From the IMG/VR virus record IMGVR_UViG_3300030012_001020, positions 1-32,222 of that record: a DNA stretch of 32,222 bases; one strand, written 5' to 3'. Origin of the DNA: a virus. The notes under the pieces were generated by a model. It searched no databases. It was not told the origin of the DNA and saw only the letters and a list, made by a program, of their open reading frames with translations. Positions 7,643 to 17,046 of the stretch are shown here, piece after piece; the first letter of the stretch is position 1; each line of letters begins with the position of its first letter. Position numbers and translations under genes: made by a program.

Positions 7643-8029
7643 CTACGTCAAATCTATACTAACCGATATGTCGCCAGCGTGCAGGTGCATGTGACGCTCT
7701 GGGGCCTTGAACCCAGCTCTGTCTAAGATATCCTTGCTCGCTTCTAACTGCACGTACTCACTCTTGGCCCCACGAGCTAACTGCACCAGTCTAGCGGCGG
7801 CTATCGTAGCACTCACGCCCATAGTCTCACCAATCCTCTGCATCATATACGCTTGCACATGTGGCAGCCGCAAAGCCTTGCTGGCTGTCACTCTCCCGCT
7901 CTCACCAGAAGCATAACCTGCCAAGCCAGCCGCTTCCGTAATGCTACATCCATTTGCTACGAGCGCATCAACCAGCGCGGTCTGCTTGGTGGTTAGCTTC
8001 TTCTCACCAGCCGTTACTACAGCACTCAT
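7643..8029 (-). CDS. Terminase small subunit (TerS)
   Basis: 128 residues. The pattern KLTTKQTALVDALVANGCSI, then TEAAGLAGYAS followed by a helix and ALRLPHVQAYMMQRI is the helix-turn-helix signature of phage small terminases, which recognise the packaging site and hand the DNA to TerL. The C-terminal part (about 70-128) would be the oligomerisation region. AAGGA lies about eight bases upstream of the ATG. It is the first gene of the leftward late arm, immediately next to the structured divergent region, so that region may also contain the packaging site. TerL is about 4.4 kb downstream, which is unusual compared with phages where the two genes are adjacent. Confidence 0.85.
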   Translation of the reverse strand: MSAVVTAGEKKLTTKQTALVDALVANGCSITEAAGLAGYASGESGRVTASKALRLPHVQAYMMQRIGETMGVSATIAAARLVQLARGAKSEYVQLEASKDILDRAGFKAPERHMHLHAGDISVSIDLT

Positions 8030-8038
8030 TACCCATCC

Positions 8039-8066
8039 TTGCGATTCTCATAACCCCCCCTGTAAT
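8039..8066 (+). promoter_or_regulatory. Putative sigma70 promoter for the structured RNA
   Basis: TTGCGA (8039-8044), 16 bases, TGTAAT (8061-8066). The match to TTGACA/TATAAT is 4/6 and 5/6. It would start transcription near 8073-8075, which is exactly where the ACATACAC segment begins that can pair with the 3' end of the structured RNA. The promoter overlaps the 5' untranslated region of the divergent TerS gene. Identified by eye; no experimental support. Confidence 0.45.
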
Positions 8067-8073
8067 CCCCCCC
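8054..8073 (-). other. Potential G-quadruplex upstream of TerS
   Basis: The minus strand carries two runs of seven guanines separated by six bases (ATTACA). Each run can give two G3 tracts with a one-base loop, so the segment meets the usual G3-loop-G3-loop-G3-loop-G3 pattern. It lies about 25-45 bases upstream of the TerS start, in its likely leader or promoter, and also inside the putative rightward promoter. Effect unknown. Confidence 0.5.
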
Positions 8074-8875
8074 TACATACACGCTCCCCAGACGCCTTGT
8101 CAACGCACAACATACGCCTGTCACACGCACACTGCCGCGAGCAAGGCGCAGTCCGCACCAGCGACCGTGACCGGCCTTGCTCTCGGTGGCTTGCGCCAGC
8201 GAAGCCAGTGTGGTGTGACCGCCCTGTACTTATCAGCAAGAGAACTGCAACACGACAATACATGAATGCACGCAGTGCATCAGTGTTGTCACACTGCTCG
8301 CTAGAACCACTACTGGAACCATAGGTTCTATCATTATTAGTGGTTCTAGTGATGCAGACCAACTGGCCGTTGCGTCACTGGCTCTGGTCACAGACCAGTT
8401 GCGGATAGTCGGGCTGGTGCTATCGCCATGGGCGATTAGCGCACTAGTAGCCCTGACTATCCGTAGCGTGGCGTAACGGACGTTGCAGTTGGATGTGCGG
8501 CGCAAGACGAGCTTGCGAGTCTTCACGCTGATAGGAGAACACACGCCGCACAAGTTACAGCCCAGCATAGCTGGGAATGGCACGCAGTGCCATGCATCTC
8601 CCAGATGCAGTAACTGGTGCTAGGCGGCATCGAGCCGCCTGCGAGTGTGTACTCTACACACACACACGATGAGCGAATGTTATCACACAGTTCATGCACC
8701 GCATGAACGGTGTGCCAGCACGCCCACTCGGTCAAGAGGTGCGATTCTTGCGCAGACATGCAAATGTCTGCGGTGCGCAAGAATAGCGACACCGCAAGTG
8801 CGGTGCTTCGCCTCTTGACTTTCGTGTCGGTCGTGATGGCCTCGATAACATATTCGCACATAGTGTGTATGTGTG
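8074..8875 (+). ncRNA. Giant structured noncoding RNA (GOLLD/ROOL-like in size, possibly new class)
   Basis: This 880-base gap between divergent genes has no credible protein gene but is filled with complementary arms. Main helices: 8120-8134/8206-8219 (14 pairs, G8127 bulged) enclosing 8139-8147/8174-8182; 8243-8251/8482-8490 (9 perfect) enclosing 8266-8271/8275-8280, 8281-8286/8291-8296, 8301-8312/8338-8349 (12 perfect) and 8367-8378/8468-8479 (12, two G-U), which encloses 8402-8410/8455-8463; 8494-8502/8544-8552; four-way junction 8553-8615; 8622-8640; 8645-8661; 8673-8684/8844-8857 (12 with a two-base bulge) enclosing 8690-8708 and 8731-8739/8811-8819. A pseudoknot (8229-8237/8527-8535) and a closing helix (8075-8082/8865-8872) are possible. 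G-U pairs and a GCAA tetraloop (8760-8763) indicate the plus strand. Size and ornateness recall the GOLLD and ROOL RNAs of phages; I cannot match their consensus by eye. Alternatives: DNA packaging site or very long 5' leader of the gene at 8909. Confidence 0.85.
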
Positions 8876-8908
8876 ACGTAACTGTAGTGCTTTTTATAGG
8901 AGATAATT

Positions 8909-9532
8909 ATGGCACAGAAAAAGAAGATGACTGTAACTAAGATCGAAACCCCTGTACGTGATGCTGGACATGCAGAGCATGTCGCAGCAGCGCATGACGC
9001 AGTGTTGAACTTGGTGGATATGATGATGACCGATGACTTTGATTCGCGCTTCGCGAATCAGGTATCGGGCGAAGAGAATCCCAAGTTCAACTCGTCAGCG
9101 CACTTCACCTTTGGCTCACGTGCCAAGGCATCAGGCGTTGCGCTACGCAAGAAGCGTGACCGCTTCTTCGAACTACAGCATCAGTATGATGCTGAGGTCG
9201 AGCGCAACGGCAAAGAGTCTACCAAACTCATCAACCTTGGCGCAAACAAGAACAAGGCAGAAGCAGAGTGGAACACTCTGGATGCCTTGCACCAGATGGA
9301 TGTTGACTTGTACAACACGATGCACAACGTTGGGACCATAATTGGTCGCAACGGTGCAGAGGCAAGTCAACCTCGCATCTGGAATGATGGGAAGCACACC
9401 GAAGACCACGGCGAAGCGTGGTTTGAGAAGGTGTGCGAGCGCATTCTTGAGCGCAAGGTGTTGTCACCGCAGGTAGACACACCGAAGGTTGACCCAGCTG
9501 AACTGCTGGCGAAGCTCAAGCGTTCAGCGTAA
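8909..9532 (+). CDS. Unknown first gene of the plus-strand arm
   Basis: 207 residues, soluble, mostly helical, with a basic start (MAQKKKMTVTKIE) and a charged middle region that could form a coiled coil (KKRDRFFELQHQYDAEVERN). A strong AGGAG lies about seven bases before the ATG. No family recognised. It is the first gene after the structured RNA and would be the first rightward product, so it may be an early takeover protein; this is inference from position. Its G+C content looks higher than that of the genes further right, more like the RNA region, which could mean that the RNA and this gene travel together. Confidence 0.85.
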   Translation: MAQKKKMTVTKIETPVRDAGHAEHVAAAHDAVLNLVDMMMTDDFDSRFANQVSGEENPKFNSSAHFTFGSRAKASGVALRKKRDRFFELQHQYDAEVERNGKESTKLINLGANKNKAEAEWNTLDALHQMDVDLYNTMHNVGTIIGRNGAEASQPRIWNDGKHTEDHGEAWFEKVCERILERKVLSPQVDTPKVDPAELLAKLKRSA

Positions 9533-9542
9533 GGAGCCTAGT

Positions 9543-9728
9543 ATGGAAACCTTTGACGAAGAATACACGCTACGGAGCATGATACTGTACTGGTCACAAC
9601 AACTTGTACAGGCTGTGCAAGATAAAGATATGTCAACCGCGCTTGACATATCATCCAACACTCTTCCGAAGTGTTGGAAACAATACAAAGAACACCTTGG
9701 CGACCTTATGGTAAATGCCAACGATTAG
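9543..9728 (+). CDS. Small unknown early protein (61 aa)
   Basis: A 61-residue acidic helical protein (METFDEEYTLRSMILYWSQQ onward). AAGGAG lies about six bases upstream of the ATG at 9543, which is why I prefer this to an upstream in-frame ATG at 9489. It begins 10 bases after the previous stop and is followed by a terminator-like hairpin, so the two genes 8909-9532 and 9543-9728 form a short transcription unit. Part of it (VQDKDMSTALDISSN...WKQYKEHL) resembles in style the small protein at 9866-10027, possibly distant relatives. Function unknown. Confidence 0.78.
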   Translation: METFDEEYTLRSMILYWSQQLVQAVQDKDMSTALDISSNTLPKCWKQYKEHLGDLMVNAND

Positions 9729-9745
9729 TTTCCTCCCCAACTGGT

Positions 9746-9777
9746 GGTGGCCTCCTCGGAGGCTGCCACCTTTTTTT
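9746..9777 (+). terminator. Rho-independent terminator
   Basis: GGTGGC (9746-9751) pairs with GCCACC (9765-9770) and CTC/GAG pairs inside, with a three-base bulge, followed directly by seven T residues (9771-9777). It lies 18 bases after the stop of the gene at 9543-9728 and would end the first rightward transcription unit. Confidence 0.8.
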
Positions 9778-15030: not shown

Positions 15031-15465
15031 ATGGATAACAAACTTAGCCCAAATAAAGGCAGGGTTTTTCCCATTACAGAAAAAGATGAGCAATACATTG
15101 GCAAGCCTATCTTGTCAGGCAAACTCAACATTGAATACTGGGCAAAGCACATTGATGATGCATACGAGCCACGCTGTGTGCTGTTCAAAAAAGAGATAAA
15201 CGGACAGCGCAAACTAGCTGTCTTTATCGAAGTTGGCTTGATGCATGATAACGGTGCTGATGTACCAGAAGGCAAGCCAAACTATGGCGGCAAGATTGGA
15301 CAGCAAAACATATCTGCCTACAAAAACAAATCACAGAATGGCTCAGACTACATGGGGCTTAGTGTCTACACACCAAACACAGACACACAGCCAACAGAAA
15401 ACAAACAAGTCATCCAGCCAGCAACAGTTGATGGAGGAACAATAGATGACGACATCCCATTCTAA
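15031..15465 (+). CDS. Probable single-stranded DNA-binding protein
   Basis: 144 residues. The middle looks like a small beta-rich domain (KPILSGKLNIEYWAKHIDDA and RKLAVFIEVGLMH), followed by a low-complexity linker (TPNTDTQPTENKQVIQPA) and the acidic tip GTIDDDIPF. Such an acidic tip ending in DIPF is the hallmark of bacterial and phage SSBs, where it recruits partner proteins. I cannot confirm the OB fold by eye. Location after exonuclease and ERF fits. GGAGCG-like site before the ATG; last 20 bases overlap the next gene. Confidence 0.75.
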   Translation: MDNKLSPNKGRVFPITEKDEQYIGKPILSGKLNIEYWAKHIDDAYEPRCVLFKKEINGQRKLAVFIEVGLMHDNGADVPEGKPNYGGKIGQQNISAYKNKSQNGSDYMGLSVYTPNTDTQPTENKQVIQPATVDGGTIDDDIPF

Positions 15466-15673
15466 TCGCACAACGACAGCCAACCCATACAACGCAACGC
15501 CCTACAAAGTGGGCGTTGTTGTTGAACATTTTGTTGAGTTTTGCTTTGCTGCCCAAAATACAGCAGAAGCAAAACTCATAGCAGAAAACAAACTACGAAA
15601 GTTTAAAAATCCAGCACAATTACAAAGAGCAGTAATAGGTGATATACATTTTATTCAAGTAGAAGAGATTTAA
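15446..15673 (+). CDS. Small unknown protein (75 aa)
   Basis: 75 residues. GGAGGA lies seven bases upstream of the ATG, inside the SSB-like gene. The first 20 residues are Thr/Asn/Ser rich; the rest (VGVVVEHFVEFCFAAQNTAE and onward to IGDIHFIQVEEI) looks like a compact alpha-beta domain. No family recognised. Its stop overlaps the next ATG by one base. Confidence 0.75.
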   Translation: MTTSHSNRTTTANPYNATPYKVGVVVEHFVEFCFAAQNTAEAKLIAENKLRKFKNPAQLQRAVIGDIHFIQVEEI

Positions 15674-16136: not shown

Positions 16137-17046
16137 GTGAATCAGATTGAGGGTCTATCAACTGAAAGATAGCTTGTCCAAAGTTTTGTTGATCAAAACC
16201 TTTGACCATAGCGTAAGTGTCATGGAATTTATAACCACGACATCTGGCAAGCCACGCTGTACTTTTATTTTCCACGTCTTCAATCTGAGCCAAGCCCCAG
16301 TTGTGCCTGTGTCCACTTATGTACAACTCAGCATGGTTTTTAAACCTAGCCATTTTGTTTTGGGCGTGAAGAGAATTCCATTGGCTATGGCCCGACATGT
16401 CGTGAGCCGCGTGTATGCGGCACTGCCGTCCATTTGGAAATCGAAGGTTGACTCTAGCCTCCCAGTCTTCACGAATGGTGTGACCACTAGCTATCCATTT
16501 CAACGGATCGCCAGCACCAGACCACATGTCATGGTTGCCGCCAATGAGAATAAGCGGATTCATCTCGCCTATCAACCATTCAACTAACTTCCAAGCTGTT
16601 TTGTGAGATGTGTCCTGTTCGCCGTACAATCGCCCCAGACGTCCAACCCAGTTATTCTGGTAGTCGCCTACCGAACAGCCATAGATATGCGTGTGTGAGG
16701 CTATTATGGACAAATGATGGCGTAATGAATCCCAATCGCAATAATTATCGTCAATGTGTGGGTCGCCTAGCCATAACAATCCAATAGGATCATCTGACTG
16801 CATGTCTACATTATACCATTTTGTTGCGTCTTTATGCGCCTTGCGCTTTTGAAAACGCAAATGAAGATGATTAACTATATCTTCAACAGGTAAATCATCT
16901 TCTGGTATTTCTGGTAAAATATATGATTTTTGTTTTGACTTTTGCAGCTCTCGATAGAACTTGCTTTTTGACATTCCTAAAGCATCTGCTGCTTTTTCTA
17001 TTGTGCCAAATTCTTTGTACGCTTCTTCAATGTTATGTTTGCCCAT
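16057..17046 (-). CDS. Metallophosphoesterase with N-terminal helix-turn-helix
   Basis: 329 residues. All calcineurin-type metal motifs are present: GDPHID (94-99), GD (127-128), GGNHD (169-173), histidines in HAAHDMSGH (212-220) and GHRH (245-248). Residues 5-35 (IEEAYKEFGTIEKAADALGM then SKSKFYREL) form a helix-turn-helix. Enzymes of this kind cut phosphodiesters; phage examples include SbcD/Mre11-like nucleases, and the DNA-binding head suggests a DNA substrate here. It is the last gene of the late arm, overlapping the lysozyme gene by 14 bases at its start and the plus-strand DUF6378-like gene by 80 bases at its end. Confidence 0.88.
   Translation of the reverse strand: MGKHNIEEAYKEFGTIEKAADALGMSKSKFYRELQKSKQKSYILPEIPEDDLPVEDIVNHLHLRFQKRKAHKDATKWYNVDMQSDDPIGLLWLGDPHIDDNYCDWDSLRHHLSIIASHTHIYGCSVGDYQNNWVGRLGRLYGEQDTSHKTAWKLVEWLIGEMNPLILIGGNHDMWSGAGDPLKWIASGHTIREDWEARVNLRFPNGRQCRIHAAHDMSGHSQWNSLHAQNKMARFKNHAELYISGHRHNWGLAQIEDVENKSTAWLARCRGYKFHDTYAMVKGFDQQNFGQAIFQLIDPQSDSPTNWVHCFVDPQAGADYLDYLLSLRR

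Follow-up and report, generated by a model that had tools for sequence, protein, structure and literature searches.

The question raised by this locus is what fills the gap at 8030-8908, between the terminase small subunit gene (7643-8029, minus strand) and a gene for a 207-aa protein (8909-9532, plus strand). The window studied spans an entire IMG/VR virus record (32,222 bases). Among the genes read leftward are those for the terminase subunits and a portal-like head-tail adaptor; those read rightward encode, among others, an antirestriction protein, a RecE-like exonuclease, and an Erf-like annealing protein. The nearest cultured phage is Pelagibacter phage EXVC031P Hodr, with a terminase small subunit and a portal that are each 61% identical. 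A nucleotide search against phage records gave no real match.

Upstream of the terminase small subunit gene, positions 8054-8073 contain the C-run element CCCCCCC-N6-CCCCCCC. It is seen in nearly all relatives with a spacer of N5-N8, its runs are shorter in a few of them, and it is missing in Hodr. The region 8074-8109 (minus strand) holds the conserved TGTCAACGCACA at 8098-8109, which is kept in relatives. Read leftward, this region comprises TTGACA-18-TATGTA, a putative sigma-70-like promoter for the terminase operon, and Hodr has TTGACA-17-TATACT at the matching position. The TTGACA-18-TATGTA arrangement was not among the matches of a consensus promoter scan of the window. In the window (8054-8109) and in nearly all relatives (L011-L090), TGTCAACGCACA stands some 20-35 nt after CCCCCCC-(5-8 nt)-CCCCCCC, upstream of the terminase small subunit. 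Viewed on the minus strand, the element reads as a putative TTGACA promoter and then two runs of G7.

The feature of the first-pass annotation (8074-8875) corresponds to a hairpin-packed noncoding leader at 8098-8908 on the plus strand. The minimum free energy (MFE) of this leader is about -402 kcal/mol, compared with about -296 in shuffles, and z was -11.3 and -16.0 in separate runs. The longer interval 8040-8908 reaches an MFE of -410.5 kcal/mol, whereas its dinucleotide shuffles give -301.9 ± 6.5 (z -16.7); the mean z of the whole genome is near -0.8 per 200 nt. Perfect hairpins, defined by a stem of at least 6 and a loop of 3-8, number 15 in 8074-8904 against 1.1 expected, or about 14 times as many. 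In the predicted fold of 8100-8908, 35 helices are 4 pairs long or longer. The annotated picture of about 800 gene-free bases full of helices is thus confirmed, with z of -11 to -17. The absence of a gene was upheld as well, since the open reading frames called mechanically on the opposite strand change position or disappear from one near-identical relative to the next.

The leader is made up of several domains. The 5′ arm (8120-8219) has a 13-bp stem and two branch helices, and is retained in relatives. The central domain (8230-8534) is closed by the helix 8230-8237/8527-8534, annotated earlier as 8229-8237/8527-8535; the annotated helices 8367-8378/8468-8479, with two G-U pairs, and 8315-8320/8324-8329, inside 8314-8330, are also present in the fold. 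The domain at 8539-8650 contains the perfect hairpins 8561-8575, 8577-8593, and 8594-8608, and a further hairpin at 8621-8641. The 3′ arm (8655-8875) has the closing pair ACACACACAC/GTGTGTATGTGTG, and its ends resemble those of the class B leaders described below. GC content rises from about 40% to 55% within the leader. Triloops are the dominant loop type in the hairpins. C(GNA)G and C(ANA)G account for 15 of 36 triloops in leaders and for none of 10 elsewhere in the window, and purine-N-A triloops are found 15 times in the plus-strand orientation against 3 of the mirror type.

A terminase-based comparison set of 80 loci shows that the 8054-8109 element is common, and that the leaders to the right of it form many groups with no sequence relationship to one another. 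In each group a small gene of about 128-227 aa comes next. Strong folding recurs at this position, with z of -4 or lower in 32 of 36 leaders on each strand. The Hodr leader gap (L109:3637-3973, OQ414635.1) has 337 nt and contains a long hairpin; its z is -5.9.

Two sets of relatives allow a closer comparison. The window group comprises nine viral contigs with the 207-aa gene, at 91-98% identity. Hairpin 8299-8350 is missing from L002, L007, and L008, the apical arm 8417-8442 is swapped for another in L002, and the inner 3′ arm (within 8655-8875) is replaced in L007 and L008. The fold calculated from the window only is retained in 95.6% of cells across this group. Class B (L024 and L091-L098) has a homologous gene at 25-30% identity and a leader of 580-680 nt at the same site. 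The leaders of the window and of class B have the similar end sequences GCTAGGC, ACACACACACGA, and TGTGTGTATGTGT. The profile match between the two classes is weak, with E values of 0.001-0.04 (0.011 for the window and 0.001 for L005), and the window's plus strand was not picked up by a covariance model built from the 3′ arm of class B. That the two leader classes are related is suggested by their position, their homologous genes, and their similar ends, with no strong score behind this kinship. Class B leaders, for example L091:1885-2503, contain two symmetric internal loops, GAACCA opposite GAACCA and TTCCTTCC opposite TTCCTTCC, which are near-invariant in otherwise fast-changing helices. 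These loops are possible protein-binding motifs.

The hairpins continue into the coding sequence. Through its codon choice, the 207-aa gene (8909-9532, plus strand) matches the leader in hairpin richness on both strands: compared with synonymous-codon shuffles that preserve the protein and the codon usage, it has z of -12.3 in the sense and -12.8 in the antisense direction. In the same test, thirteen other genes of the window gave z of +0.5 to -5.2. The genes tested from the window group and from class B are also structured on both strands (z -6 to -10), and the excess in genes of other leader classes is mostly much smaller. At one protein position the arms of a coding hairpin are altered and still complementary: the window has GATTCGCG-CTT-CGCGAATC, L081 has GATCCTCG-AAG-CGAGGATC, and L032 has GATCCGC-GAGAA-GCGGATC. 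The folding excess drops beyond a strong intrinsic terminator at 9743-9777 (plus strand), which has a 12-bp stem and then TTTTTTT. The earlier extent of 8074-8875 therefore stands as a folded tract and not as its limit, since the tract runs through the gene to about 9780. The equal density of strand-symmetric hairpins within the gene speaks against the tract being a discrete RNA.

The protein encoded by this gene had no match in Pfam and PHROG searches. Its AlphaFold model has a mean pLDDT of 51, and the credible part is a helical hairpin at roughly residues 58-147 (confident at about 71-130). The first rightward genes of the window and its relatives encode small proteins of very fast evolution and adjoin the antirestriction gene. 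They are candidate host-takeover or anti-defence genes.

The strand of the element was examined by folding energy, pair composition, and substitutions. The G-U pairs of the leader had been taken to identify the plus strand as the RNA, and this argument fails, as the reverse complement folds nearly as well. For 8098-8908 the MFE is -401.6 on the plus strand and -384.9 on the minus strand (z -11.3 and -11.6), and for 8040-8908 the reverse complement reaches -404.8 against -410.5. The mean z of the 36 leaders is -7.45 on the plus strand and -7.77 on the minus strand, and the plus strand is lower in 16 of them. Real structured RNAs, namely rRNA and RNase P, gave z mostly of -1 to -3 by the same method, which is weaker than the leader values. 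RNase P showed no difference between strands (-1.8 and -1.6), whereas 23S did. Symmetry of z alone thus cannot exclude an RNA, and more weight was placed on pair composition and the substitution test.

Pairing in the tract is nearly pure Watson-Crick. The share of G-U is 4-6%, compared with 12% in RNase P and 13-19% in pieces of E. coli rRNA. Among interior pairs its share is 4.1% on the plus strand and 1.7% on the minus strand of the leader, and 2% on either strand of the gene at 8909-9532. One-sided changes, scored from the majority Watson-Crick pair, were counted in plus-strand consensus helices; these small counts gave G-U:A-C ratios of 5:6 in class B and 8:6 in the window group. The sum of 13:12 lacks the preference for G-U over A-C that would be expected on the plus strand if it were the strand of a functional RNA. 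An RNase P control alignment of divergence like that of class B gave 15:3. The minus-strand consensus gave 15:9 and 20:8, and the sum of 35:17 leans to the minus strand and is confounded by base-composition skew. For MFE helices the ratios were 0.85 and 1.31, compared with 2.0 in RNase P. Hairpins that are nearly pure in Watson-Crick pairs, equal on both strands, and indifferent to the boundary between coding and noncoding sequence favour writing or selection at the DNA level.

The preferred explanation, held tentatively, is that 8098-9777 is one hypervariable transcription unit in which template switching or selection, acting on the DNA, writes the hairpins and keeps them perfect. The unit would comprise the folded leader, the 207-aa gene, and the terminator, and would be flanked by the leftward terminase promoter on one side and the antirestriction gene on the other. 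Single strands that are nascent or exposed may snap back, so that one arm of an imperfect inverted repeat is copied onto the other (quasi-palindrome template switching), and arms may be swapped among relatives through recombination. The presumed transcript would be densely folded over its whole length, the ribosome-binding site excepted. On this view generic pairing, rather than one specific ornate RNA, would be the property that is tolerated or favoured, and the folded mRNA may bring some benefit.

Template switching creates and keeps hairpins via multi-base compensatory changes, and perfects arms in single events (PMC8794818). Quasi-palindrome mutations are more frequent in highly transcribed yeast DNA (PMC3820800). 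Hairpins made by template switching (PMC8794818, PMC7202029, PMC8604942) resemble those of the tract in that they have perfect arms, small loops, and compensatory changes with no wobble bias, and also occur in coding sequence. In contrast, the known examples are scattered and single, while about 1.7 kb is saturated here. As template switching would leave them, the arms in the tract are perfect irrespective of strand and coding status. Multi-base arm changes were seen (A1 and A4) without an inverted loop, and no single switch event was caught in the relatives compared; module recombination could also yield two-sided changes. The GC rise from about 40% to 55% goes beyond template switching alone and would be accounted for by selection for stability.

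Genome-scale ordered RNA structure occurs in viral mRNAs. The tract resembles it in its pervasive coding-region pairing beyond codon constraints, and differs in being limited to one transcription unit of a DNA phage, with both strands equal. It is the unusual scale that sets this locus apart from template-switch hairpin tracts and from structured phage leaders. If writing at the DNA level is true, the locus is a natural case of strong covariation without strand preference, with the same pattern inside a protein gene. This would be a caution for covariation-based RNA discovery, in which covariation is the usual proof of a functional RNA, and it suggests a simple extra test of G-U against A-C on both strands and in the neighbouring gene.

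A serious, though doubtful, alternative is that the leader is a structured RNA of a new class, that is, a plus-strand 5′ leader with a large conserved fold that controls mRNA stability or translation or works as an RNA in its own right; the 207-aa protein may bind it. As in a functional RNA, helices are kept by compensatory change, which agrees with the covariation anticipated among homologues. In the window group, 9 pairs of the window-only fold show two-sided changes, whereas shuffles give 2.9 and slid controls 1-4; in class B the L091-only fold has 54 such pairs, and slid controls give 6-22. None of 500 shuffles was as high in either case. The RNAalifold consensus of class B has 140 pairs, and 46 of them show two-sided changes. 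The constant position upstream of the first rightward gene, Hodr included, also speaks for a leader RNA, and so does the consistent association of leader class with gene family in the window group and in class B. Against it stand the strand-symmetric folding, the missing plus-strand wobble signature, and the equal structure of both strands in the coding gene.

The state of the ribosome site bears on this alternative in both directions. The Shine-Dalgarno sequence (AGGAG) and start codon of the 207-aa gene (8894-8911, plus strand) are left unstructured, and the start-codon region 8800-8980 is open, with z of -0.1 (8800-8919) and +0.9 (8860-8979). An open start site is in line with a functional leader. 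On the other side, the sequestration seen in some relatives is absent in the window, where no perfect complement to the Shine-Dalgarno core was found. In Hodr the AGGAGG site of the next gene is hidden in the base of the long hairpin, where it takes part in an 11-nt perfect match; L034 and L041 have a similar helix. These three are thus similar to known structured 5′ leaders that sequester the Shine-Dalgarno, unlike the window and class B, which share the leader position and have a mostly free site. Sequestration was rejected as a general mechanism, as shuffled leaders mostly pair the site too, and the perfect-complement test was significant in just 8 of 43 relatives at p≤0.05 (3 at p≤0.01) and not in the window. 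In the leaders of L016, L017, L058, L020, and L027, a 3′ segment GCGGGGGA or GCAGGGG has two alternative partners, CCCC(C)GC on its upstream side and, on its downstream side, CCCC(U)GC, which lies just ahead of the Shine-Dalgarno, in a switch-like arrangement.

The higher GC, the plus-strand purine-N-A triloops, the fit to a single transcription unit, and the open ribosome site are hints of RNA-level selection, and for this reason the leader RNA keeps a substantial minority share of the probability. If such an RNA is functional, marine phages would have a class of very large leaders that has not been described so far. It is conceivable, though unlikely, that in a marine phage family including the cultured Pelagibacter phage a large leader RNA stands before the first rightward gene, is replaced wholesale from relative to relative, and is almost always strongly folded. 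In the window's branch, the leader and coding sequence would then be one continuous RNA-protein module maintained as a structure, which would make it a giant mRNA fold of a new kind.

It is rather improbable that the tract is an element of the DNA itself, with hairpins or cruciforms next to the terminase gene that would act in packaging or in the initiation of replication. The equal folding of both strands is consistent with such a role. C(GNA)G triloops, which are stable DNA mini-hairpins, are present, and the tract occupies the divergence point, with the C7-N6-C7 element and the terminase small subunit gene as neighbours. However, about 1.7 kb that includes a whole gene up to its terminator is large for an origin or a pac site, and beyond 8054-8109 the relatives share no sequence.

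Membership in the cage-forming GOLLD or ROOL classes, raised by the first-pass annotation, or a near relationship to them is very improbable, as the length of over 800 nt and the phage setting are offset by negative Rfam and direct GOLLD searches, no tRNA nearby, and no wobble signature. Rfam models gave no match at the gathering score in the window or in the loci of eight relatives, where ROOL (RF03087) was likewise absent by cmscan, and none at E≤10 over the region. A direct search of the record with the GOLLD (RF02032) model was negative, and no control matched in that search. GOLLD and ROOL usually lie near a tRNA island (PMC12286853). A tRNA search of the 32 kb found none, so this usual setting is lacking. 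The tract is similar to both classes in being phage-borne, in its range of 0.5-0.9 kb, and in its many nested helices and compensatory changes; in GOLLD, too, a variable 5′ part is joined to a 3′ part that is more constant (PMC12286853). It differs from them as the leader of a protein gene, with hairpins that extend into the gene, a low G-U share, and strand symmetry. The tract matches no described RNA family and is neither GOLLD nor ROOL by model or setting. No locus of this kind is described in the literature searched, which covered little of the subscription literature.

Both the preferred DNA-level writing and the leader RNA can be tested in the cultured relative Hodr. Elsewhere in the window, isolated folding peaks occur at 15401-15600 (z -8.6, plus strand) and 16801-17000 (z -6.7, minus strand), for which terminators are one possibility.
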